This document shows, piece by piece, positions 4,525-28,123 of a DNA stretch of 35,983 nt (the stretch's first letter is position 1; the number at the start of each line of letters is the position of its first letter). The notes below the pieces were generated by a model. It was not told the origin of the DNA. It saw only the letters and a program-made list of their open reading frames with translations, and ran no database searches. A program made the position numbers and the translations under genes. Origin of the DNA: a virus; the IMG/VR virus record IMGVR_UViG_3300001683_000072, positions 1-35,983 of that record. The stretch is one strand, 5' to 3'.

Positions 4525-5484
4525 ATGGCCGAGCAAGTATTCCGTTCACCAGGATTTTTTGATCAAGAGATCGATCTTTCTGAACGACAACAGGGCGCCT
4601 TAGGAACCCCGGCGGGAGTAGTGGGCATCTCACTACAGGGTCCAGCATTTGTGCCTGTTACCATCGGGTCTTTTGCAGATTTCCAGACTAGATTTGGAAG
4701 TCTAGATCCTAAATATTTTGGCCCTTATGCAGTGCGTGAGTGGTTAAAAAATCGGAGCGCTGTAACATTTATGAGAGTCCTCGGCGCTGGTGCCAACGAC
4801 TCTTCGGCAAACATTGCAACGACAGAACAGCTCGGCACGGTCACCAATGCCGGATTCAGATTAGACACAACAGCGATTGCTTCTTTTTATGAGGGCGCTG
4901 TACAATTCCTCTGTGCCAAGCACTACGTCTCCGCATCAACGACTGATTATGGATACCCTGTTTTTACTGATAACAGGAGCTTTCTCGAGCGGTCGGACAG
5001 TGGCCAGGCTAATATCGTTAATTTAGTGCGGTCTGTGGTGTTTGTGGCCAGTGGCACTAGGCTCCAGATTGCTGATAACAGCGATACCCCCCTCTCTGCA
5101 AATAAGGTGACCCGTTATGTGGGCGGCACTCCAGGGGATTTAATAGACGATTTTGCACGTCTCGATGCTACCGATGCTAAGGTGTTCAAGCTTATTCTTT
5201 CTTCTTCGGCCGGTGTGGACTGGGCGAATGATGAGGGAATTGCCGGTGCCCGGAGCTTCACTAGATCCGGAGCACACAGCCTATGTCGGAAAAATTCTAA
5301 ACATCGATCCGCGAAAATTCCAGACAGAACAGCATTTGTTATACCTGGATTTTCCTGTGGAGAACGAACTCGCACCGGTGGCTGGGAATCTTCTGGGTGC
5401 TATAGCAATCTGTTCCGGTTCGGCCCAACAGGGAGCCAAGGGAAGTTCGGCCGGCGTCTTCCGGAATTTATTTGGCCGTTTTGA
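4525..5484 (+). CDS. Tail sheath protein 1, N-terminal part (frameshifted)
   Basis: The first ~243 residues of a contractile tail sheath protein. The ATG has AAGGAG nine bases upstream. The N terminus (MAEQVFRSPGFFDQEIDLS, then GTPAGVVGISLQGPAFVPVT and EWLKNRSAVTFMRVLGAG) closely parallels that of sheath 2 at 7841. Homology continues to about base 5262 (ending near ARSFT); the remaining ~75 residues of this frame are unlike any sheath and end at 5484, while the sheath sequence resumes in the next frame as SLDPEHTAYVG. The reading frame therefore breaks near 5250-5262. If the shift is a sequence error, the gene is a single ORF of about 1,091-1,094 residues spanning 4525-7801. If it is real, this is a truncated, probably non-functional product. 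Confidence 0.8.
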   Translation: MAEQVFRSPGFFDQEIDLSERQQGALGTPAGVVGISLQGPAFVPVTIGSFADFQTRFGSLDPKYFGPYAVREWLKNRSAVTFMRVLGAGANDSSANIATTEQLGTVTNAGFRLDTTAIASFYEGAVQFLCAKHYVSASTTDYGYPVFTDNRSFLERSDSGQANIVNLVRSVVFVASGTRLQIADNSDTPLSANKVTRYVGGTPGDLIDDFARLDATDAKVFKLILSSSAGVDWANDEGIAGARSFTRSGAHSLCRKNSKHRSAKIPDRTAFVIPGFSCGERTRTGGWESSGCYSNLFRFGPTGSQGKFGRRLPEFIWPF

Positions 5485-7801
5485 TACTCGATATACGACG
5501 CCGACCACGCCATCAATAATCTCTCAACCCTTTGGGAAGAGCGAATACAATCTCATGAGGTTCGAGACGATATCGGACGGCGCATATACCAACGATCGAT
5601 ACAAGGTGTCGATTGCCAACATCCAAATGTCGAGCGATCCAAAAAATCAGTATGGATCATTTGAGGTGCAGGTCAGAAGATTTAGTGATAACGATCTCGA
5701 GCTTGAGGTAGTGGAGTCATATCCGGCTTGTACACTAAACCCAAACGACAGCAATTATGTTGCAAGACTCATTGGCGACAAAAGGGTGCATTTTAATTTT
5801 GATGCTGATTCCGACAGTGAGCGTCGATTAGTGATTAAGGGTAAGTATCCGAATCGATCGGCGCTGGTCCGCGTCCTAATGTCCCAGGGGGTGGAGAATG
5901 GCGATGTCCCGGCCCAGGCTCTGCCTTTTGGATTCAGGGGCGTTCCCGTCGTCAAGACCAGCGATTCACTCACAGACGTGCAGACTGTAGGACTGAGAGA
6001 TTTAAACCTAATCCGAGTGGGCAATTCCGTATCCGGTTCACACGTTTTTGGTGGGGGCGCCTATGGATTTCATGGCGGCAACAGGCTTGTGGCCAGCTCC
6101 TCAATAGCCAATAATGGCAATCTATCGGACGTAACGACGGGGGTGGGAAATTTTCTGACCGCACTCACGAGCTCAATTGTGCCGCCGTTGCCGTTCACTT
6201 TTAAAGTGACCCGTGGACAGGTCTGGGCGCCCGGCGAGGCCTTTGTGCCCACGGGCGCTACGGCCCGGGCCAATCCGGCACTTCTGGGTCAGAAGGGCAC
6301 TCAAGAGCGGGTCGATTCACGCTTTTACTGGGGCGTCAAGAGCACAAAGATACCGCCCACTGGATCCGTCAGCTTTGCAGTGCTGAATACAAACGTCAGT
6401 AATGCCCACAACCCCCTGATCAATGCATACACAAAGATGCAGGGGATCAGCAAGATGGACATGCTGTTGACCGGCTCAGCAGTCGACCTCTTTAATGATA
6501 ATAAGTTCACTCTAGCACGGGTAGCTTTGTATAACAAGTTGGATGCCAGCAATGATATTTCCCAGGTGACCGGCACTGCTAAACAACATATGCTCCAGGC
6601 TTGCTACATCAGAAACGGTGTGCCGGACGCTACTTACGGCACTATCGCTGATCCGCTCGGGACTTATGGCGATCGGATTACTATGGCAACCCTGGTCAAT
6701 TCTTCCTCGGTCCATTTCAATCGATTTACGGATTATAATAAGTTCACCACCATATTCTATGGCGGCTTTGATGGCCTTAATATTCTTGATCCAGATAATT
6801 TCTATATGAATGATAAGGCTGGTTCCGTAACTGTTGGTGGCAAGGCGTCGGTTGAATATACCGACACTGGATTAGCTAATGGGAACGTGGCTGGAACAGG
6901 GATATTGAATAATGTTGTGTTTGCCTATCAACAAGCGGCGCGCCTCATGACAGATGAAATGACGGTGAATACGAATCTGCTAGCTATCCCAGGCATCAAG
7001 GGGGCTTTGATAACTGATGTGGCGGCAGCCGGCGCTAAGAGTAATTCTACCATAATGTATGTCATGGATATTCCCCCCTATACCGCTGCGGGAGTCCGTC
7101 TGTATACCAACGCCCAGCCCGACGTCCGAGAGACGGCTGAACAGTTTGCATCCCGGGTGATTGATAACAGTTACACGGCCACATATTTCCCGGATGTGAT
7201 AATTGAGGATCCAATTAATAACACAAATGTCGAAGTTCCGTCCTCAGTAGTTGCATTGGCAGCCATTGGATACAACGATAGGGTTGGATATCCCTGGTTT
7301 GCTCCGGCTGGATTCAATCGAGGCGCACTGGAGATGGTGGTAAACACGACATCTCGTCTGACTCAGGGGGATCGTGACGAGCTGTATGATGCCAGGATTA
7401 ATCCGATCGCAACTTTCCCAACTAATTCCGGAGCAACTTTTGTTATCTTTGGACAGAAGACGCTGCAGCTAGCTAAATCTGCCCTAGACCGGGTTAATGT
7501 CAGGAGGATGCTGCTCGAGGTGAAGAGGCAGATTGTCCAGGTTGCAAATAAGATTCTTTTTGAGCCCAACACCGCTGCGACCAGGGCACGATTTCTGGGA
7601 CAGATCATTCCGCTATTGGCACTAATCCAGGCCCAAGCAGGAATTGAGAGTTTCCGAGCCGTATGCGATGCTAGCAATAATACACCGGCAGACGTCGAAT
7701 CTAATAGGCTCAACGGCAGAATCATCCTAGTGCCTACAAGAGCCGTTGAGTTCATATCAATTGATTTTATCATCACAAACAGTGGTGTTAGTTTTGAGTG
7801 A
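5153..7801 (+). CDS. Tail sheath protein 1, C-terminal part (frameshifted)
   Basis: The remainder of sheath 1, in the +1 frame relative to its N-terminal part. True sheath coding starts near 5253 (SLDPEHTAYVGKIL); residues encoded before that are the wrong frame, and the nominal start at 5153 has no reason to be used. The C-terminal ~200 residues hold the conserved sheath core: YFPDVI, YPWFAPAGFNRG, DELYDARINPI, FGQKTLQLAKSALDRVNVRR, ILFEPN and the final beta strands, all closely matching sheath 2. This domain normally forms the inner layer contacting the tube and the inter-subunit handshake. The reconstructed length of about 1,090 residues compares with 659 for T4 gp18, the excess lying in the middle outer domains. 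Confidence 0.85.
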   Translation: MHVSMLPMLRCSSLFFLLRPVWTGRMMRELPVPGASLDPEHTAYVGKILNIDPRKFQTEQHLLYLDFPVENELAPVAGNLLGAIAICSGSAQQGAKGSSAGVFRNLFGRFDTRYTTPTTPSIISQPFGKSEYNLMRFETISDGAYTNDRYKVSIANIQMSSDPKNQYGSFEVQVRRFSDNDLELEVVESYPACTLNPNDSNYVARLIGDKRVHFNFDADSDSERRLVIKGKYPNRSALVRVLMSQGVENGDVPAQALPFGFRGVPVVKTSDSLTDVQTVGLRDLNLIRVGNSVSGSHVFGGGAYGFHGGNRLVASSSIANNGNLSDVTTGVGNFLTALTSSIVPPLPFTFKVTRGQVWAPGEAFVPTGATARANPALLGQKGTQERVDSRFYWGVKSTKIPPTGSVSFAVLNTNVSNAHNPLINAYTKMQGISKMDMLLTGSAVDLFNDNKFTLARVALYNKLDASNDISQVTGTAKQHMLQACYIRNGVPDATYGTIADPLGTYGDRITMATLVNSSSVHFNRFTDYNKFTTIFYGGFDGLNILDPDNFYMNDKAGSVTVGGKASVEYTDTGLANGNVAGTGILNNVVFAYQQAARLMTDEMTVNTNLLAIPGIKGALITDVAAAGAKSNSTIMYVMDIPPYTAAGVRLYTNAQPDVRETAEQFASRVIDNSYTATYFPDVIIEDPINNTNVEVPSSVVALAAIGYNDRVGYPWFAPAGFNRGALEMVVNTTSRLTQGDRDELYDARINPIATFPTNSGATFVIFGQKTLQLAKSALDRVNVRRMLLEVKRQIVQVANKILFEPNTAATRARFLGQIIPLLALIQAQAGIESFRAVCDASNNTPADVESNRLNGRIILVPTRAVEFISIDFIITNSGVSFE

Positions 7802-7840: not shown

Positions 7841-10800
7841 ATGGCTGAATTGACCTTCCGGAGCCCGGGTGTAGGCACAATAGAAATAGATCTTTCTGGT
7901 CCCACTCCTAAGGTGCCGACCGGAGTACCAGCCGGCATCATTGGGACCGCACAGAAAGGCCCGGCCTTTGTGCCTGTTACTATTGCAGACTTCAGCGATT
8001 TTGTTGCAATTTTCGGCAGCACCGACGGCGAGAAATTTGGCCCTCTAGCAGCCAGTGAGTGGTTTAAAGAGGCTCAGGCCGGCACTTATGTGCGCATCCT
8101 GGGAGTTGGCGACGGCAAAAAAGCGGTCTCCTCCACCACTGGAGACACACAGCCTGGCGGCGTCACGCGCGCGGGCTTTATCGTTGGCAGCCAGGAAGTG
8201 CAGGCAAACGGTAGGATCGGTGCCAACCCCGGTGTAGGGACTGTTTTGCCCTTTTCTGGTGCGCTGGGACGCACCTACTTCTTAGGCGCTTTCATGTCAG
8301 CGTCAACTCCCACAAGTAACGTCGATTATCCGGGAATATTCAGGGAGGCAAACATCCGTGCTGGTGGAGATATACAAGGCATCGTAGGTGTCGACGGCGA
8401 TAATTTTCCCACTGGATCCGTTCCCATCCTGAGATCCGTGTTGATGGCCGCTTCGGGCGTGCTTCTGTCTCTCTCGTCGTCCACCGTTCCGGGAGCGAAC
8501 AACGTTCCCCGAGAATCAGGAGGCGGCTCGTCCGGTGAATTCTATAATCAGATCAGCTCGACTGGCGTGTTCGGTCCAAATTACCGAAACATCGATGGAT
8601 TCGATGCAGGATACATAATTGGTGACGTCAACAAGACCAAGGGCGCGCAGAACTTCACCCTTCTGGTCAATGGACTCAAGCCATCCAGCACGTATCCAAA
8701 TATTATAACAGCCTCATTTGATCCTCAAGCGTCAAATTACCTCCGTAATGAATTCAACACGGATCCCACGAAGATTGAAGATGCCGGATATTACATGTAC
8801 GCAGAGTATCCTGTGGCTCGTCAATATGCGGTCGTCACTGGATCAGGCATTTTCAACCAAATATCACAGTATCCTACTACCGCAATTGCAGAACAGCACG
8901 AGCCGTGTGCATTTATTTTAACATCATCGGCCGGCCGTAATACTAGCACCGCTACTACGACGACTGTCGGCGGCAAGCCCAACTTTGAAGGCTTCAGGAC
9001 CCGATTTAAGTCTGCTGCATCGCCGTGGGTGACGTCACAGGAATTTGGCGGCAGACCCAAAAATCTATTCAGAATACACCTGCGCGACGACGGCACTGCA
9101 GCAACTAATAATTTTAAAATAAGCATTGAAAATCTTCGGAAGGTGTCAAATACATTGGTGGCCAACCAATACGGAACTTTTGATATAGTCCTCCGGACGT
9201 TGACGGACACCGATAATGATCCCTCAGCTGTCGAAAGATTCCTCAAGTTGAGTCTCAACCCTAAGGATGACAGGTACATCGGGCGAATCATCGGCGATCG
9301 TAATACGTACTATGATTTTGATAAGAATGAAGGATCCCAAAAATTAGTCGTCGATGGAATATTCCCCAATAAGTCACACAACATTAGGGTTGAGATAGCG
9401 GACGAGGTTGCCAGTGGCTTGATCGATCAACTGGCATTGCCGGTAGGCTTCAGGGGGCCGCGGCACCTGGTGACGTCCGGGTCGAGCATAATGAACTTTA
9501 CAGACGTCGCGCGGGCATACCCAAATCCATTTGGTGGCGCCGGACCCCAGCCGGCTGTAAATCCCATCTCCGGCACCTATGCGCTCAGCGCCGATATTGT
9601 GCAGCGCGTTGTGCAGCCGCCAATACCCATGCGTCGTTCTTTGACCGTCGGTGCGCCACCCCAGACCAAGGCTAATTCTGATCTGTACTGGGGCGTTCAA
9701 TTCCAGGTCGATTATGACCCCATTGAACCCAACAAGGGCTCCCTGTTTAACAGGGCTATTTGGTCTTTTGCCAAGTACTTTCCTGACTATAACAGCGATG
9801 GACAGTCTGCTTGGGTGGGCAATAATCCAGGCACCGCCGACAAGACCGGCACCGTTTATGACTCCGATCGGTTCAACAACAATCGATTCAGCCTTGAACG
9901 GGTCCAGGTGAGGATCAAGGGGACAATTGATGGCGATAGTGACTTCCCGGATTCAAAATATTGGCAACAGGCCAGGTATCGCCGCGACGGCGTCCTTCGA
10001 TATGATAGTAATTTAACTGCGGCAAACTCCAGGTTCCTGGACGTGGCTAAGGACTTTGCTATAGGGAGCGCTCAGCGCTTCCTCAAGTACAGTTTTTTCC
10101 TACTTGGAGGTTTCGATGGAGTCGATATTTTCAACGAAGAAAAAGCTAAGCTGCTGAACGTGGCAGCACAGTGGGAAGTCGATGATTCCACTAGCCAAGG
10201 CGGCCTCGAGGGACCGACGGTGCAGGCTTACCGGCGCGCCATTGATGTCCTGGAAGAGAGGTCCAATGCCGACATTCAGCTACTAGCGATTCCGGGCGCA
10301 CGTCACACATCCATCACCGATTATGCGATTGATGCCGTGACCGACCGCTTCGATGCAATGTATATCATGGACATTGAGGAGCGCGACGTCGAGAATAATG
10401 TCGTCACCGGATCAGTGCAGAATGTGGGGGTTGGTACCACCACCCGCGCCTTCAATTCCAGGAATTTGGACAGCTCATTTGCGGCTGCCTACTTCCCGGA
10501 TGTGATCATGACGGATCCAACCACACTGACAAATGTGCAGTGTCCACCTTCGGTTGCCATCCTAGGGGCGTATGCTCTTAACGATGCAGTGGCCCATCCC
10601 TGGTTTGCCCCTGCTGGTTTCACGCGTGGCGTTCTTGCCTCTGTTGTTGAGGAGGCTGTTAAGAGTTCCCGTGAAAATTTAGATGAGCTTTATGATGCAA
10701 AGATTAACCCGATTACGGCATTCCCGCACACGCCGGGCGTGGTTGTATTCGGACAGAAGACGCTGCTGGCTACCCAGAGCGCTCTCGATCGCGTTAACGT

Positions 10801-11098
10801 CAGGAGACTGCTCATTGAGATCCGACGTCGTGTGCGAGCTGTTGCAGACATTATCCTGTTTGAGCCGAACCGACAAGCAACACTAGCGAGGTTCTCTGCA
10901 GCTGTACAGCCCATCTTAGGCAGGATCCAAGCACAGCAGGGGCTCGATAGGTTCAAGGTCGTAATAGACTCGACGACGACGACCCAAGCAGACGTTGAGA
11001 ATAATACAATTCGTGGAAAGATCTTCCTACAGCCGACCAGATCTGTCGAGTTCATCTCGCTCGATTTTGTGGTTACGAATAAGGGCGCTAACATTTAA
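7841..11098 (+). CDS. Tail sheath protein 2 (intact)
   Basis: 1,085 residues, one open frame, with TAGGAG ten bases before the ATG. It is paralogous to the preceding gene over its whole length: N terminus MAELTFRSPGVGTIEIDLSG, then VPAGIIGTAQKGPAFVPVT and GPLAASEWFKEAQAGTYVRI; C-terminal core HPWFAPAGFTRGVL, DELYDAKINPITAFP, FGQKTLLATQSALDRVNVRR and ILFEPNRQATLARF. The conserved termini pack around the tail tube; the divergent middle (~residues 120-750) would form outward-facing domains and explains why it is far larger than T4 gp18 (659 aa). It is the last gene before the tail tube gene, the T4 order 18-19. It is probably the working sheath, with or without sheath 1. Confidence 0.93.
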   Translation: MAELTFRSPGVGTIEIDLSGPTPKVPTGVPAGIIGTAQKGPAFVPVTIADFSDFVAIFGSTDGEKFGPLAASEWFKEAQAGTYVRILGVGDGKKAVSSTTGDTQPGGVTRAGFIVGSQEVQANGRIGANPGVGTVLPFSGALGRTYFLGAFMSASTPTSNVDYPGIFREANIRAGGDIQGIVGVDGDNFPTGSVPILRSVLMAASGVLLSLSSSTVPGANNVPRESGGGSSGEFYNQISSTGVFGPNYRNIDGFDAGYIIGDVNKTKGAQNFTLLVNGLKPSSTYPNIITASFDPQASNYLRNEFNTDPTKIEDAGYYMYAEYPVARQYAVVTGSGIFNQISQYPTTAIAEQHEPCAFILTSSAGRNTSTATTTTVGGKPNFEGFRTRFKSAASPWVTSQEFGGRPKNLFRIHLRDDGTAATNNFKISIENLRKVSNTLVANQYGTFDIVLRTLTDTDNDPSAVERFLKLSLNPKDDRYIGRIIGDRNTYYDFDKNEGSQKLVVDGIFPNKSHNIRVEIADEVASGLIDQLALPVGFRGPRHLVTSGSSIMNFTDVARAYPNPFGGAGPQPAVNPISGTYALSADIVQRVVQPPIPMRRSLTVGAPPQTKANSDLYWGVQFQVDYDPIEPNKGSLFNRAIWSFAKYFPDYNSDGQSAWVGNNPGTADKTGTVYDSDRFNNNRFSLERVQVRIKGTIDGDSDFPDSKYWQQARYRRDGVLRYDSNLTAANSRFLDVAKDFAIGSAQRFLKYSFFLLGGFDGVDIFNEEKAKLLNVAAQWEVDDSTSQGGLEGPTVQAYRRAIDVLEERSNADIQLLAIPGARHTSITDYAIDAVTDRFDAMYIMDIEERDVENNVVTGSVQNVGVGTTTRAFNSRNLDSSFAAAYFPDVIMTDPTTLTNVQCPPSVAILGAYALNDAVAHPWFAPAGFTRGVLASVVEEAVKSSRENLDELYDAKINPITAFPHTPGVVVFGQKTLLATQSALDRVNVRRLLIEIRRRVRAVADIILFEPNRQATLARFSAAVQPILGRIQAQQGLDRFKVVIDSTTTTQADVENNTIRGKIFLQPTRSVEFISLDFVVTNKGANI

Positions 11099-11155: not shown

Positions 11156-11644
11156 ATGGCCGACACACTTTCAGTTACTGAGATGCTGCCCAATAAATTT
11201 GAGCCTAAACGCAAATTTCGTTGGGTCTTTGCAATTGAGGGCGTCGATTCATTTTTGATGAAGACTGCCGCCCGTCCGACAATAAACACAGCGGAACAGG
11301 AAATTCCTTTCATCAATTCCACCAGATATCTGGCGGGCAAGACTAAATTTGACGCTATTTCAGTCACCCTGCACGATCCTATTGCTCCCTCCGGCGCTCA
11401 GCAGGTGATGGAGTGGATTAGAACTCACTTTGAGTCAGTCTCCGGCCGAGCCGGTTATGCCGATTTCTACAAGCGCGACTGTCAACTTAAGCTGCTGGAT
11501 CCCATTGGCACGGTGGTGGAACTGTGGGACCTCAAGGGCTGCTTCCTGACTGCCAGCAGCTTCGGTGATCTGGACTATGGTTCCGAGGACCCGGCTGAGA
11601 TCTCGTTGACCATTCGATACGACAACGCTGTGCTGCAGTACTAA
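11156..11644 (+). CDS. Tail tube protein, gp19-like
   Basis: 162 residues, almost exactly the length of T4 gp19 (163). Diagnostic features are an N-terminal segment with FEPKRKFRWVFAIEG, a KTAARPT strand, the YLAGKTKFDAISVTLHDPI strand that follows, and the C-terminal YGSEDPAEISLTIRYDNA, all typical of the T4-like tail tube family. It polymerises into the inner tube through which DNA passes. The ATG at 11156 is chosen because GGGAGA lies upstream and the next ATG five bases earlier opens a different frame. It directly follows the sheath genes, and the abundant transcript expected here is ended by the strong terminator just downstream. Confidence 0.92.
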   Translation: MADTLSVTEMLPNKFEPKRKFRWVFAIEGVDSFLMKTAARPTINTAEQEIPFINSTRYLAGKTKFDAISVTLHDPIAPSGAQQVMEWIRTHFESVSGRAGYADFYKRDCQLKLLDPIGTVVELWDLKGCFLTASSFGDLDYGSEDPAEISLTIRYDNAVLQY

Positions 11645-11666: not shown

Positions 11667-11708
11667 AAAATCCTCCCAGCCTGTTCTGAACACTGGGAGG
11701 ATTTTTTG
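11667..11708 (+). terminator. Strong Rho-independent terminator after the tail tube gene
   Basis: A perfect 13-bp stem (AAAATCCTCCCAG at 11667-11679 with CTGGGAGGATTTT at 11693-11705) around a 13-nt loop, with the T-run continuing to 11707. It lies 23 bases past the tube stop codon and closes the sheath-tube transcription unit. The A-tract and T-tract make it potentially functional in both directions. Confidence 0.9.
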
Positions 11709-11765: not shown

Positions 11766-12035
11766 ATGAAGATTTCAAAGAGACAGCTGCATCGGATCAT
11801 AAGGGAGGAGGTTGCCGGCATCGTACGATCTAGGAGCCTGGATTATACCCTTCTGGATGAGCCAGGCCCTGAGGCTTCGCTCGGTGAATTTGTGCGTCGG
11901 CTCGAGCAGGACACCCTTGCCGGCGAAGGCATCCCAATGTCACCCTCGGAGCTCCGAGCCCTGTATAGCGACTGGCAGGACAATGTCATTTCCTGGGACG
12001 ACGCCCGGGCTGAAGTGGCCGAATTGGCCTTTTAA
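11766..12035 (+). CDS. Small protein with N-terminal KRQL..IIRE peptide (1 of 3)
   Basis: 89 residues beginning MKISKRQLHRIIREEV; the rest is acidic, helical and otherwise featureless, with a C-terminal region rich in Glu, Asp and Trp. No family recognised. The N-terminal 14 residues recur almost unchanged in the next two genes and form a basic amphipathic helix ending in I-R-E. That matches the [I/L]-x-E sites cut by T4-type prohead proteases after capsid-targeting peptides, so an internal head protein is possible. It lies after the tube terminator and starts a three-gene cluster. A weak AAGAAG precedes the ATG. Function is not established. Confidence 0.6.
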   Translation: MKISKRQLHRIIREEVAGIVRSRSLDYTLLDEPGPEASLGEFVRRLEQDTLAGEGIPMSPSELRALYSDWQDNVISWDDARAEVAELAF

Positions 12036-12044
12036 GGATTTATT

Positions 12045-12410
12045 ATGAAGATCACAAAGAGACAGCTGAGACAATTAATTAGAGAGGAGAAGGCGAGGTT
12101 GGTGCTTGAAAATGATTTACCCCGTCGCGAATGGCCGCCATCTCACCCCGGGGACAGACCAATCCATCCCGGGAGCGGCAGGTGGCTCCACCGACAAGGC
12201 AACTTGGAGGACATTATATTCAGGGTTCTGTTCGACAACTCGGGGGCGGACAGCGAGTCTCTGGTCCGTCTTGTCTTAGGTGAACCAGGCGCAGAGCAGT
12301 TCGAACGCAAAGATGTCCTTGATCAGTTGTACGAGATGGAAGAAGATGGCATAGTATTTGTCGATGCCCCAGAAGGAGATGCCCCAGAAGCATGGTTCGT
12401 CATTGACTGA
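12045..12410 (+). CDS. Small protein with N-terminal KRQL..LIRE peptide (2 of 3)
   Basis: 121 residues, beginning MKITKRQLRQLIREEK, nearly the same N terminus as its neighbours; the DNA AAAGAGACAGCTG is identical to the first member. A Pro-rich linker (~residues 25-50) leads to a compact C-terminal segment (~residues 52-121: LEDIIFRVLF, then VLDQLYEMEEDGIVFVD and WFVID) that looks like a small winged-helix-type fold. The ATG follows AAGGA and lies nine bases after the upstream stop. The shared leader with unrelated bodies suggests a sorting or processing signal. The body may bind DNA or protein; this is inference only. Confidence 0.6.
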   Translation: MKITKRQLRQLIREEKARLVLENDLPRREWPPSHPGDRPIHPGSGRWLHRQGNLEDIIFRVLFDNSGADSESLVRLVLGEPGAEQFERKDVLDQLYEMEEDGIVFVDAPEGDAPEAWFVID

Positions 12411-12428
12411 CCCCTCTAAGAAGAAGCT

Positions 12429-12812
12429 ATGAAGATATCTAGGAGACAAATTAGAACGATCATCCGTGAGGTCCTAGAAGAGGATCCCAGACCGACACCT
12501 CCGGAGGAGGAGTTTGTTGATGGACCGGATGAGCTAGCCGGCTATATATTGGTCTTGGATGACCATGATCATCTTCCCATTGCACATGCCCCAATTACCA
12601 GAACTGACGGGCCCGACAGGCCATATTTGGTCCGTACAACCGACACACGGTGGCACGTGCCGTTCGGAATTGTCAGGTCCATATATCCGCAAGTGGAGGA
12701 TGTTTTCAATCACATCGATTCCAAGGAGGACTGGAGCAGTCTGGACCCCGGAGATTCAGGACATGTTGGGAACTTTGAGTGGCGCTGGATGGTCGATGAG
12801 CCAGTGATTTAG
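12429..12812 (+). CDS. Small protein with N-terminal RRQI..IIRE peptide (3 of 3)
   Basis: 127 residues, beginning MKISRRQIRTIIREVLEED, followed by an acidic Pro/Glu-rich linker and a body rich in Asp, His, Trp and Tyr (ELAGYILVLDDHDHLPIAH ... FEWRWMVDEP) that I do not recognise. As in the other two, I-R-E occurs at residues 12-14, and a second L-E-E follows at once. The gene is 18 bases after its neighbour and preceded by AAGAAGAAG. It is probably co-transcribed with the two upstream genes. A packaged internal protein is a reasonable guess; its body shares no evident similarity with the other two. Confidence 0.55.
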   Translation: MKISRRQIRTIIREVLEEDPRPTPPEEEFVDGPDELAGYILVLDDHDHLPIAHAPITRTDGPDRPYLVRTTDTRWHVPFGIVRSIYPQVEDVFNHIDSKEDWSSLDPGDSGHVGNFEWRWMVDEPVI

Positions 12813-13073: not shown

Positions 13074-13111
13074 GGATTGGTGTACAAACCTCAACGTTAG
13101 GAGCAGCAATA

Positions 13112-13969
13112 GTGTCAGATAGTAAAACCGGCCGAGAGGCGCGCAATGAAATATTCGGGGCCGGCGGGGGCGGGCCTCATATGCCGACACAAAATGTCAT
13201 GCTGGAGGAGTTTGGCTACGAGATCCCAGTCGAGAACGTCCCGCTGCCTTCGGGCGGAATCTGTTATCCCACCAACGATAGCCTCTATGGAAAAGAGACG
13301 GTGCAGATTAGGGCAATGACGGCACGTGACGAGGATATTCTCACGTCCCGGGCTCTTATCAAGAAGGGGACTGTTATCACCCACCTCTTGCACTCATGTC
13401 TGATCGATAAGAATATCAACGTTGATGATATGCTGTCCGGAGATCGCAATGCGATCATGATCTCACTGAGAATTACGGGCTACGGTTCGAGCTATAATGT
13501 TGAGGTTGACTGCCCGAACTGTTCAGAGCGTTCCAAGCAATCTTTTGAATTGGGAACGCTACCTATTTCACGCTTAGAGATCTCACCGATTGCAGATGGG
13601 GCCAATCTCTTTGAGTTCCAGCTACCCGTCACTAAGAAGACTGTACAGTTCAAATTCTTTACCGGTCGGGACGAGCAGGAGATCATGGTTACGAGCGAGC
13701 GCAGGAAGAAACAGGGAATGATATCCAACAACCTTGTGACTACCAGGTTACAGCATGCAATTGTTGCCGTGGACGGGGTGACCGACAGGAACAAGCTTAG
13801 CGCATTCATCAGGAACATGCCGGCAAGGGACTCCTTGACCCTAAGGAAGTATATGGACGACAAAGAGCCGGGCATCGAAATGAAGAGCTGGATGGACTGT
13901 CCTTCCTGTGACGAGCAGTCGGAGGTGAGGCTGCCTTTAGGGGCCTCGTTTTTTTGGCCTGACTCATGA
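13112..13969 (+). CDS. gp26-like baseplate/tail assembly protein
   Basis: 285 residues from a GTG start. Residues ~43-125 (VPLPSGGICYP, ETVQIRAMTARDEDILTS, LIKKGTVITHLLHSCL) match what I know of the T4 base plate protein family of gp26 (PF12322). Two CxxC pairs, CPNC near residue 133 and CPSC near residue 268, probably bind one zinc ion. The C terminus, LPLGASFFWPDS, ends with the FFWP-type tail I associate with this family, so this product is probably complete as it stands. In T4, gene 26 is followed by 51 and then the hub and tape-measure genes, as here. Position before the tape measure also suggests a tail assembly chaperone role. Its last codons overlap the next frame through a TTTTTTT run. 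Confidence 0.75.
   Translation: MSDSKTGREARNEIFGAGGGGPHMPTQNVMLEEFGYEIPVENVPLPSGGICYPTNDSLYGKETVQIRAMTARDEDILTSRALIKKGTVITHLLHSCLIDKNINVDDMLSGDRNAIMISLRITGYGSSYNVEVDCPNCSERSKQSFELGTLPISRLEISPIADGANLFEFQLPVTKKTVQFKFFTGRDEQEIMVTSERRKKQGMISNNLVTTRLQHAIVAVDGVTDRNKLSAFIRNMPARDSLTLRKYMDDKEPGIEMKSWMDCPSCDEQSEVRLPLGASFFWPDS
13949..13955 (+). other. Candidate frameshift site TTTTTTT
   Basis: A run of seven T read as TTT TTT TGG by the gp26-like gene, 12 bases before its stop. The following gp51-like frame is open from 13941 (after a TAG at 13938) but has no ATG, GTG or TTG until 14007. A +1 slip on TTT-T, or a -2 slip, within this run would fuse the two: ...ASFF-GLTHEDKEVF. It is the only homopolymer slippery sequence in the 27-base window where the shift could occur. 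Confidence 0.45.
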
Positions 13970-14006
13970 GGATAAGGAAGTCTTTCTGGATCAGATCTTT
14001 ATCCTA

Positions 14007-14219
14007 ATGTACTACATGGGCTTCACCTACACTGAGGCGTACACGGTGCCCATATGGCAGAGGCACTGGTTCATAAAGAGGATAAACAAGGAGATCAAGG
14101 ACGCGTCCGATCAGGGCTCCAACGGCTCGCGCGCTGCCCACCACAACACCCCTGGGACCAGAACATTAATGGGACGCAATCGATCACACACTCCATCCAG
14201 AGTAAGGCGTTTCACCTAG
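14007..14219 (+). CDS. gp51-like small tail assembly protein (possibly made by frameshift)
   Basis: 70 residues from the first ATG, MYYMGFTYTEAYTVPIWQ. This ATG has no ribosome binding site, and codons before it continue a sensible sequence (THEDKEVFLDQIFIL, back to 13941) leading straight into MYYMGF, so the real N terminus probably lies upstream. The segment 'x-ILMYYMGFTYTEAYxxPIWxRxWFIKRINKEIK' has the helical, aromatic pattern of the small protein that follows gp26-like genes in T4-like phages, the gene 51 position. A basic C-terminal tail (SRVRRFT) follows. With the gp26-like gene it has the layout of the G/GT tail chaperone pair placed ahead of a tape measure gene. The exact start is uncertain. 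Confidence 0.6.
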   Translation: MYYMGFTYTEAYTVPIWQRHWFIKRINKEIKDASDQGSNGSRAAHHNTPGTRTLMGRNRSHTPSRVRRFT

Positions 14220-14250
14220 GGCACGATAATTATATCAGCGAGGTGACACC

Positions 14251-14508
14251 ATGAAGTCTGGTGACAGAACTAAAAAATTTTTTGCCGCAGCGGCGCACTA
14301 TGTCCTGGGCCAGCGTTCCGGTATTAAAGTGAAGGGCAGCCCCCAGAAGCTCCGGGCCGTACAGGAGGCCCTCAATGCGTCACGTGTCCTGTATGAGGCC
14401 CTCCAGGATCCAACGACCAACCTGGATGAAGTCCTGCGGCTCGTCGAGAAGAAACGAGAGAGCTCGGCCAAGTTCCGCAGCACGGTCGGGATCGACTGGG
14501 TTCTATAA
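14251..14508 (+). CDS. Small conserved-looking tail region protein
   Basis: 85 residues, basic and helical (FFAAAAHYVLGQ ... LRAVQEALNASRVLYEALQ ... LDEVLRLVEKKRE), ending STVGIDWVL. GAGGTG lies eight bases before the ATG. No known domain recognised. It sits between the gp26/gp51-like pair and the tape measure gene, where small chaperone or tape-measure accessory proteins are common. Function is unassigned. Confidence 0.65.
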   Translation: MKSGDRTKKFFAAAAHYVLGQRSGIKVKGSPQKLRAVQEALNASRVLYEALQDPTTNLDEVLRLVEKKRESSAKFRSTVGIDWVL

Positions 14509-14568
14509 ATCCAAAAAAATTAACTCGTGAATACTTAGTATTGTACCCCAGTTGAAGGAGCTAGCTGT

Positions 14569-17500
14569 TTGGCAGGCGACGTTGAAAATCTTAAGATTCA
14601 ACAGCAGATCAATAGCGTTCTCGCTCAGCGCGCCCAACTGTTGGATGCAGCGATCAGCAAACAGACGACTCAGCTCGAGCTGGCGCTCGAGCTGTGCAAG
14701 GCCATGGACTGCGAGGACCTCGAGAAGTCTGCTGAGCGCCTGCAGGAGATAAGAGATGGGATGCAGGGCGCCAGCCGCCAGGCTGACCAGATGGGCGGCA
14801 GCTTCGAACAGGCTGCCTCGACCGCCACCCGCTCCTTCTCCACTCTCACAAAGGGCGTCAATGCGACCTCGGGCGCTCTCACCGGTGCAGCCTTCGGCAT
14901 CAAGAACGCCTTTGATGGCCTCCTGGAGCGTGGGAAGGCCATAGGCAGCTTCTTTGCATCGATCACCAGTGGGATCTGGAGCATATCCTCGGCAATATTG
15001 ATGGCGCCATTCTCCATGCTGAGCGGCCTGATAGGCCTGGCAAACGAGAGCGGCGGGGGTGGTGGAGATCCCCTGCGCGAGGCGTACGAGAAGGTCCGCG
15101 AGACCTGGGGCAGCCTGGCATCGAACGAGGGCAAGGCACTGAAGGACAGCGTCATCGGTCTGCGTAAGGCTGCGCGCGATTTTGGGGGCACAGGGCTCAA
15201 GCTCAGCCGAATTTATGGCCGAGGACGAGCCGGACTGGCCGCGGCCCTCGAGGACCTCGATAGCGTCGCTCAGGCCCTGGGCAACACTTTTGGCCTGCTC
15301 AAGGATGAGTTCACGGCCCATGCCGACGACATCCTGTCATATAAGAAGGGACTCGGACTCACTGAGGACGCCATGGCCGCACTGAGCAAGCGTGCCCTTG
15401 CTACTGGTAGGGCCCTCACAGGTGATGATGGGATCCTGACCGAGATGGCTAGCCTGGCCATCAATATGGGCGATAAGTTCGGCATAAGTGCAAAGAGGAT
15501 CTCAAAGGACATGCAGGTCATGACTGAGGACTTCAGCAACTTTGGCAGCATGAGCCAGAAGGAGCTGGCCGCCACCTCCGTCTATGCACACAAGCTCGGC
15601 ATGGAGATCGAGGACATGATGGGCGTCATTGAGAAGTTCGACAACTTCGAGGATGCTGCCACCGGCGCCGCCCTGCTGGCCCAGTCATTCGGCATGAACA
15701 TCGATGCCATGGAGATGATGAATGCGCAGTCTCCGGCAGAGCGCATCGATCTAATGCGTAAGTCGTTCTTTGCTGCCGGGCAGAGCCTCGAGAACATGAC
15801 CCGCCAGGAGAGGAAGCTGCTCGAGACACAGACCGGCCTGGCCGGTGCTGCCCTGGATGCGGCCTTTGCCAACGAGAGCATGGGGCTGTCCTACGACGAG
15901 GTCACAGCCGGCGCCGAGGATGCCGAGAAGAAGCAGCTGACCCAGGCCGAGGCCATGAAAGAGCTGGCCGACAGCATTGAGCGGGTCTTTGGCGGTGGCG
16001 GCGGCAAGCGGTTCACCTCCTTCTGGGATGCCTTTAGCCAGGGCTTCAAGAGGGGTGTCATGAGGTCCAGAACCTTCCGGAAACTGTGGAGGACTATCAG
16101 GAGGTCTCTGAAAGAGACCTATAAGTTTGGCATCAGGCTCGGCAGGATGTTTGTCGACATTTTTCCGGGCATAAAGAGCGTTGCCGAGGGGCTCACCAAT
16201 ATATTTAATCCCGCGGCTTTTAAGCAAATGTTTGGACAAGTCGAGGACGCTTTTAGGACGTTTGCTGGGTTCCTAGGAAAGGACGGTGATCCCATAGCTG
16301 GGGTTGAGCAGCTCTTGGAAAATCTCCGCACGATATTCAGCAACTTCTTTGGGGGCCATGGCGAAGCTATGGAGACCATCAAGAACGGTCTGCAGGACGC
16401 CTTCCTAGCTGCTTTTGGCATCATCGCCGGCCTCCTTCCCGTGGCCGTCAAGAAGCTGACGGAGCTGTTCATCGGCATTGCTGAATGGATCTCCTCGATC
16501 GGCGAGAAGGACGATAAGGCATCCCCAAAGACTGCCTTTGAGCTTGAGATGGGGAAGATATTCGATGACCTCTGGAAGACGCTCGAGCCCCTGTTGCCGA
16601 AGCTCAAGGATGCTTTCATAAAGATGTTCACGAATCTGTGGGCCAAGTACGGCGGCGAGATTACGGATGCTATATTGACTGGCCTGGCCATCGTCGCCGG
16701 CGGTGCCCTGCTCTCCTTCGGCGCCAGTGCACTCATGGGCGGTGGCCTGGGAGGTATGTTCGACAGCTTCTTCGGCGGCAGCCAGAAGGCGGCCGAGAAA
16801 TCAGCTGCTAAGGTCGGCGGGGCACCGGACGTCAAGGCCGCGCCGATGGCAGAGAAGGGCGGCTTCATCGACTCCATGGTGGATGCCGCAAAGGCCCTCC
16901 ATGAGATGACCATCGGCGAGGCCGTGGAGTTCGGCCTGAAGCTCACCATAATCTCCACGAGCGTGATGGGTGCACTCATCGAAATGGGATATGCCATGAA
17001 GAAAGTTGCTTCCATGTTCTCCGAGATATCGTGGGACGACCTAGGCAAGGGTCTGGCGGCAGTCGTCGTCGCCATCGGGGCCACCGTGGCACTGGTATGG
17101 GCGGTCCGAAAGATGGGCGACATGGATATGACGGACATTATTGTCGGCCTGGGTGCGGTCGCGCTCGTCCTCGAGAAGGGCGTCCCAATGATGATCAAGG
17201 CCGCAGAGAAGATCGCCGACTCCATTCCGAAGATGGTGAAATTGATGGTGCCTCTCGGAAAGCACCTTAAGGATTTTGCCAACGGCCTGCCAGAAAAGGA
17301 CGTGGTGAAAGACGCGGCCCAGAAGATGGTGGATGTGGCCCAGATTGTGGGCATCATGGGCGCGCTTATGGTGGGCGGCGGCGCCGTCGGGCTCCTCGGT
17401 GGAGCGGCCAAGGGGGTGGCGGATTGGATCGGCATCGATTTCGATCTGAAAATTTTCGACACGGTGGGCGAGGCCATGGACGCAATGCGCGACGCGCTCG

Positions 17501-26523: not shown

Positions 26524-27162
26524 GTGAATACTGATACTTTTATAAGAAGACACGTAAGAAAATTGTTGATGGAGAATGGCTATTCCAGGGCACCCTTGGC
26601 ATCGTCCGACCCCACCCTTCGGCCCGGGCGCCCCGTGAACGAAGAGTCAGAATTTTTTAAAAAAAGCCGCCAACGCGCCAGCGGCAAAAAACCTTCGCGC
26701 CGCTCTCGGGGACAGTTTCGAGTGGTGTCTTCGGTTCTCGGTCGCATCCCTAAGGGCATGAGGCCGGCCAATCCAGCTGACGTCATGAAAAATTTGGAGG
26801 CCACCGGCCGCTACACTGGCATGGACGCTGAGAGTGCCATTGAGGCCATTGAGAGTCTCATGGAGGCTGCCATAGGCGGAGCGGATGCCATGCAGCGTGC
26901 CTATGGCGGAGTGAGCACCAGGGATGATGGGCAAGGCCGCCGAGGAGTGGTTGTGGGCCTGGGTGAGCTGGACCTCAATAATGCTGCACGTTACCTAAAA
27001 ATTACCCTGGAAGCAGCGCGCGATTCCGGGATGCTCACCCTCGGCCAGGACGTCCGGGTCGAGACCAGCAGTCTGGGAATTGTAATCTATGAGTCGCCGG
27101 GCGGAGCTCATTCGTGGGGACGACAAAAATCACGCCGGCGCAAGAAAAGTGACAAAGACTAG
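26524..27162 (+). CDS. Hypothetical protein with processed-leader-like N terminus
   Basis: 212 residues from a GTG. It starts MNTDTFIRRHVRKLLMEN, a basic amphipathic helix ending L-M-E, reminiscent of the KRQL..IIRE leaders at 11766-12812. A long basic, disordered region follows (residues ~20-75: Arg, Lys, Ser, Pro), then an Ala/Glu helical region (~85-130: SAIEAIESLMEAAIGGADAMQRAYGG) and a beta-type C-terminal part (RRGVVVGLGELDLNNAARYLK ... VETSSLGIVIYESPGG) ending in a very basic tail. No known family recognised. The basic regions suggest nucleic acid binding. It lies between the polymerase and an HD-domain gene. Confidence 0.6.
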   Translation: MNTDTFIRRHVRKLLMENGYSRAPLASSDPTLRPGRPVNEESEFFKKSRQRASGKKPSRRSRGQFRVVSSVLGRIPKGMRPANPADVMKNLEATGRYTGMDAESAIEAIESLMEAAIGGADAMQRAYGGVSTRDDGQGRRGVVVGLGELDLNNAARYLKITLEAARDSGMLTLGQDVRVETSSLGIVIYESPGGAHSWGRQKSRRRKKSDKD

Positions 27163-27832: not shown

Positions 27833-28123
27833 ATGCACATTTTGAGACAGTACATACGTCTGACGCTGCTCGAGGCGCATGCCAAGAGCGACGAAGAGGA
27901 TCCCACGGAGGACCTCCTGACCGAGCCAGATTTTCCGGACTCGGATGACGAACAGGAAGAGCAGAGCGTCGTTTCGAATATTGCTGGCTACACTCTCCCT
28001 TTGGGAGCTTCCCCAATTATCGTACCTCACTTAAGCAGCGCGGCGAGATCGCTGGATCTGGTTTTGGCGGCGCTAAACCCGAAAAGAAAAGGCGGCGTCG
28101 ATCGGTATAAAATTATCGAATAA
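27833..28123 (+). CDS. Small acidic protein with leader-like N terminus
   Basis: 96 residues from the ATG at 27833; an in-frame ATG at 27785 would overlap the HD gene and add 16 unlikely residues. It begins MHILRQYIRLTLLEAH, a basic helix ending L-L-E at residues 12-14, the same position as in the 11766-12812 family. A very acidic stretch follows (~18-45, Asp/Glu-rich), then a hydrophobic segment (~50-65) and a basic end. No known family. It may be a processed internal virion protein, though its location next to the SSB gene could instead mean a replication accessory role. Confidence 0.5.
   Translation: MHILRQYIRLTLLEAHAKSDEEDPTEDLLTEPDFPDSDDEQEEQSVVSNIAGYTLPLGASPIIVPHLSSAARSLDLVLAALNPKRKGGVDRYKIIE

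Follow-up and report, generated by a model that had tools for sequence, protein, structure and literature searches.

Why should three neighbouring phage genes encode proteins that begin with the same peptide and continue with unrelated bodies? The locus lies in a linear IMG/VR virus record of 35,983 bases, all of which was analysed and which we call the window. The first-pass annotation had proposed that three consecutive ORFs here open with one peptide, and ORF translations, a six-frame scan and sequence controls bear this out. ORFs 11766, 12045 and 12429 share the N-terminus MKI[ST][KR]RQ[LI]xx[IL]IRE, with I-R-E at residues 12-14 in all three. They lie in tandem on the plus strand, each with an ATG start, and are separated by short intergenic gaps. 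Leader protein 1 (11766..12035, 89 aa, MKISKRQLHRIIRE-EVAG...; leader peptide, codons 1-14, at 11766..11807) and leader protein 2 (12045..12410, 121 aa, MKITKRQLRQLIRE-EKARLVLEN...; codons 1-14 at 12045..12086) were defined by ORF translation, six-frame scan and BLAST. Leader protein 3 (12429..12812, 127 aa, MKISRRQIRTIIRE-VLEED...; codons 1-14 at 12429..12470) was defined by ORF translation, six-frame scan and an AlphaFold model. No fourth N-terminus of this type was found in six frames on both window strands. The IUPAC back-translation of the leader matched the window three times and its backward reading not once, and a relaxed regular expression likewise gave three matches in the window, none in the reversed window and none in 40 Markov simulations.

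The bodies are ORFans, and the accompanying claim that they are unrelated also holds: what similarity BLAST finds among the three proteins stems from the leader, and no significant mutual similarity was found from residue 23 onward. Pfam and PHROGs searches of the three proteins returned no credible domain. A TrmO_C match to ORF 12429 was rejected, being weak, below the cut-off and partly overlapping the leader. Viral searches with ORFs 11766 and 12045 gave mainly leader-only matches (the whole-protein search with ORF 12045 reached other proteins aligned mostly over the leader alone), and the viral search with ORF 12429 found no relatives. AlphaFold models are of low confidence (pLDDT 61 for ORF 12429 and 47 for ORF 12045). 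The former shows, at low confidence, an alpha/beta structure whose N-terminal helix spans residues 5-17, and a PDB fold search with it found no match.

Judging by its gene content, we take the window to be a fragment of a T4-superfamily myophage whose left end falls just downstream of the head genes. Pfam and PHROG family searches identify T4-superfamily sheath, tube and baseplate hub genes, followed by genes for SSB, RecA, exonuclease, helicase and ribonucleotide reductase; a gp18/gp19-type tail sheath and tube in the window, together with gp23 and S77 in its relatives, place the phage in this group. The three-gene leader cassette sits in the tail module, between the tail tube gene directly upstream (11156..11644, plus strand; PHROG 4542, E=1.6e-32), which served as the anchor for finding relatives, and the baseplate hub gene downstream (13112..13969, plus strand; PHROG 150, E=1.9e-21). 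Between the tube gene and the cassette, a hairpin followed by a T-run (11667..11705, plus strand; MFE -20.8 kcal/mol, z=-4.8) is a probable terminator; it was overlooked by a simple scan and picked up by its folding energy (MFE and z).

Two other features of the window deserve mention. Overlapping ORFs at 4525-5484 and 5153-7801 jointly make up one tail-sheath-like gene (4525-7801), probably split by a frameshift, either real or a sequencing error, and a second, intact sheath gene (7841-11098) adjoins it. At 135-1020, tandem genes with near-identical starts (MPKITVTNTKGLVQ...) possibly encode head decoration or fibre proteins; in relatives (G001) their counterparts come after the major capsid gene.

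A short N-terminal peptide common to unrelated small proteins recalls T4, where IPI, IPII, IPIII and Alt carry a capsid-targeting sequence (CTS). The first 10 residues of T4 IPIII suffice for packaging, and gp21 cuts after L/I-X-E (PMC9026906). As in the T4 internal proteins, L/I-x-E ends the peptide, and an S77 protease and a gp23-type head are found in the same phages. By analogy, the leader is quite likely to be a capsid-targeting propeptide specific to this lineage and terminating in L/I-x-E, which would act through binding, cleavage, retention and ejection.

The basic N-terminal helix M-K-[IL]-[ST]-K-R-Q-L-R-R-I-I-[KR]-E would bind, along with conserved core-like proteins encoded beside the protease, the internal core of the assembling prohead. 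A gp21-type S77 protease would then cut after [L/I]-x-E: at Glu14 if the next residue is small (Ala/Ser), but with Glu at residue 15 at another [L/I/V]-x-E, around residue 22. The freed bodies would remain in the head with the DNA and would probably enter the host, and the three window genes would constitute one small cargo cassette between tail tube and baseplate hub. Cleavage of the leader peptide, its placement at residue 14 rather than at the second L-x-E, and a role of the bodies as ejected effectors are all inferences. We are least sure of ejection, which is modelled on IPI and Alt of T4 (PMC9026906).

The leader is widespread. We retrieved 80 relatives via the tail tube protein, and a scan of IMG/VR DNA for the MKITKRQLRxII core yielded 93 stretches from about 50 contigs; leaders deviating from this core are under-sampled owing to the narrow DNA pattern. 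In total, 423 leader proteins (at least 45 aa) were collected, which form 198 body clusters by single linkage and 265 by a stricter rule, and most bodies have no match in Pfam. Unlike T4, with its few carriers, these phages have tens of leader carriers per genome: a leader-profile search gives 41 sites for G008 and 40 for G040, and another seven contigs have 23-31 each. In G001, 12 strict leader genes were found, most of them in one array behind the tail tube. Residues 1-14 are nearly invariant over clusters (E14 97%, I12 96%, L8 95%), although this invariance is partly selected since carriers were sampled by the leader pattern. Body diversity, protease co-occurrence and the second-site pattern described below are independent of that sampling.

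Some carriers are unusual. One 551-aa ORF (G008:153296-154951) not only opens with a leader but also contains a complete second one at residue 229, where it has an ATG of its own; this may be a gene fusion or an internal start. Leaders also occur at L350, L354 and L355 (NHDW01000006.1, 305,838 bp) and at L351 and L353 (PBIO01000025.1, 101,404 bp), on contigs binned into Methylococcaceae and Halobacteriovorax MAGs. Both are probably phage contigs, and the binning offers weak hints at most of the hosts of leader phages.

The form of the leader's end bears directly on cleavage. In the window proteins, residue 15 is Glu in two and Val in the third, in contrast to the classical small P1' residue (T4 sites typically have Ala). 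Protein 2 has a VLE at residues 20-22 that may serve as a second site, and in ORF 11766 the next L-x-E is L-D-E at residues 30-32, with none earlier. Across the 423 leader proteins, entropy jumps from residue 15-16 on, and conservation is lost past Glu14 or past a second LLxE near residue 22. When each body cluster is represented by one protein, 90 of the 111 leaders with E15 are followed by another [LIVMF]xE within residues 16-25, compared to 22 of the 64 with A/S/G/T15 (Fisher p=1.2e-9). We read this sequence pattern as a sign that every leader keeps one good cut site, and the dichotomy could in part stem from the descent of two leader blocks. The leader differs from the T4 CTS in being about 14 or 22 residues long and basic and in having two alternative sites.

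The same data can be read without cleavage. The leader might be a helix that docks on the prohead or on DNA, loads or tethers proteins in the head and stays uncut. Low-confidence models do show N-terminal helices (residues 5-17 and 5-21), the leader is strongly basic, and P1' is Glu in most carriers. Nevertheless, a near-invariant Glu14 after I/L-x, the entropy break at this point and a compensating second L-x-E are hard to explain without a protease, and we regard an uncut docking helix as improbable.

A cleaved propeptide calls for a protease in the same phages, and a check proposed by the first-pass annotation was whether carriers encode one of gp21 type. Counting carriers alone, Peptidase_S77, the prohead protease family, was found in 15 of the 16 carrier contigs that are 105 kb or longer, and gp23 in the same 15. 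The exception, G041, has neither; it looks like a fragment because the gp23 capsid gene is absent too, and it probably is one. Among the relatives found through the tail tube, 13 of 19 encode S77, and the remaining six are truncated, their contig ranges leaving the tube gene under 16 kb of upstream sequence. The protease-to-tube distance is 17-32 kb in the nine contigs measured. As the window has 11 kb upstream of its tube gene and starts with the MPKITVTNTKGLVQ genes, which are post-capsid in G001, its protease is expected just outside it. The gp23 homologue of G001 matches T4 gp23 (E about 1e-33), and in the nine gp23 N-termini an LRE or LKE lies close to the T4 maturation site; the next residue is Ala or Ser in seven, and the other two have LLRE-R. 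The predicted capsid-protein cleavage site, VLRE^A, takes the form seen at the leader end, IIRE/IIKE.

Inspection of 25 S77 loci revealed that the protease is directly followed by two small conserved genes, A and B, with leader-like N-termini (gene B of L092 is beyond the retrieved stretch, and gene A of L084 was seen only outside the main 25-locus listing). Gene A starts with MAK[LI][ST]xxxLKxxVKECLVEILAEG and gene B with KxLTPxxLRRLVLEEKxKL; the forms differ in L268 (MNIAKSKLKQIIKEEIEAVMTE). Profile comparison with the cargo leaders by hhalign gave 95.7% for gene A and 88.5% for gene B, and single-sequence HMM searches of the two genes against the leader were modest (E 0.003 to not found). 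In five of six genomes without large cassettes, gene B was top-ranked in the HMM search. Since the A genes, like the B genes, are orthologues, these amount to few independent observations. Gene A of G001 has no match in isolate phages. Being small and encoded in the portal-protease-scaffold-capsid cluster, genes A and B resemble the T4 core proteins gp67 and gp68, a likeness seen in size and location only. The gene order differs, gp67/gp68 preceding gp21 in T4 and genes A and B following the protease here. For example, the head module of G022 reads portal, 280-aa protein, S77, gene A, gene B, scaffold-like gene, gp23 and leader genes, and its leader cassette (L181) begins 72 bp past the gp23 capsid gene. 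The suggestion that the peptide is a capsid-targeting or processing signal thus gains support from S77 co-occurrence, leader-like genes beside the protease, a cassette after the capsid gene and the likeness to VLRE^A.

This arrangement also bears on whether the leader could be a sorting signal for the tail or baseplate. The cassette does lie between tail tube and baseplate hub in the window, G001, L018 and L022. However, other cassettes are nowhere near the tube gene (in G008 at 83 and 146-161 kb, in G011 at 0-10 kb) or right behind the capsid gene, and the conserved leader-like genes adjoin the protease, which makes a tail address very unlikely.

We give an equally low chance to the leader being only a nucleotide-level element, such as a translation signal or recombination site, or the trace of a recent duplication. 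Codon identity at identical leader residues is 0.59 within a locus and 0.53 between loci, above the 0.36 expected from body codon usage, which indicates that leaders share descent. Yet about 41-47% of identical residues are still encoded by different codons while 77-81% of residues agree between pairs (81% within one locus), and so many accumulated synonymous differences indicate that the protein sequence is what leaders conserve. Moreover, the bodies are unrelated and the second L-x-E pattern follows protein logic. That the leader addresses another compartment or complex, for example the phage nucleus or replication machinery, is scarcely credible, since leader-like ends occur on genes of the protease/capsid cluster and carriers have T4-type gp23/S77 heads, even if many carriers are jumbo-sized contigs (240-293 kb) and the leader is short and basic.

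How does the capsid-targeting propeptide that we favour relate to known ones? By the presence of a short N-terminal peptide common to proteins with unrelated bodies and ending in [L/I]-x-E it resembles the CTS class, but it has no recognisable similarity to the T4 IP-type CTS (MKTYQEFIAE) that would indicate descent from it. The T4 CTS query found 456 records, mostly T4-like enterobacterial phages, and the leader query only one match, a weak one in an uncultured huge phage. A literature search for the leader sequence found no paper containing it. The closest T4 sequence in form to IIRE/IIKE is the propeptide of the vertex protein gp24, which is cut by gp21 and begins MAKINELLRE-S, a short MxKI...LLRE leader; gp24 is a shell protein, unlike cargo, and the resemblance is in form only. 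The giant phages SPN3US and phiKZ offer another parallel, as many of their head-packed proteins have propeptides removed there by a prohead protease. Several propeptides of their ejection proteins exceed 100 residues and do not form one shared short module (PMC5694885). What is new here is how broadly the leader is used, its design with two sites and the existence of a second leader type.

The second type has the form LLREYIRxLLxE / FIRRxVRRxLLE. In the window it is carried by a 212-aa protein (26524..27162, plus strand; MNTDTFIRRHVRKLLME / MNTDTFIRRHVRKLLMEN), and relatives carry an element similar to this leader, FIRRxVRRxLLE, placed in tandem after the first leader. An internal start of ORF 27785 (27833..28123, plus strand; start codon uncertain) would give a possible further leader protein (MHILRQYIRLTLLEA). 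The LLREYIRxLLxE family is found on proteins of 137-422 aa in G008 (66939, 80376, 82419, 84786, 86655) and G005 (84103). One relative without the main leader, G012 (13110-14793, 50946, 76556; L149-L152), has other L-x-E leaders (NEWRxFLNE; LLEEFIREALIDEA), some of them on very small proteins rich in lysine, which suggests that targeting peptides are particular to each lineage. As to cargo, a cargo-like protein of G011 (L188:1322-2263, minus strand) contains an HD domain whose PDB matches are RelA/SpoT (p)ppGpp hydrolases (E=4e-13), and its leader is a weak variant (MKVSRKLIREILLE). The domain is suggestive of a host-directed role, and the protein is a candidate virion-delivered alarmone hydrolase.

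Taken further, and here we lean only mildly towards it, uncultured T4-superfamily and jumbo phages may possess a virion-delivered arsenal, in which an interchangeable cleavable leader and a second type load some 10-40 different proteins into the head of each phage for injection before phage gene expression, the proteins being swapped between genomes. If so, the leader would be a new portable packaging tag, an idea directly testable by proteomics, and one short tag in DNA would tell which genes of uncultured large phages are packaged and probably injected. Hundreds of ORFans would thereby gain a place and a time of action, in host takeover or anti-defence at infection.
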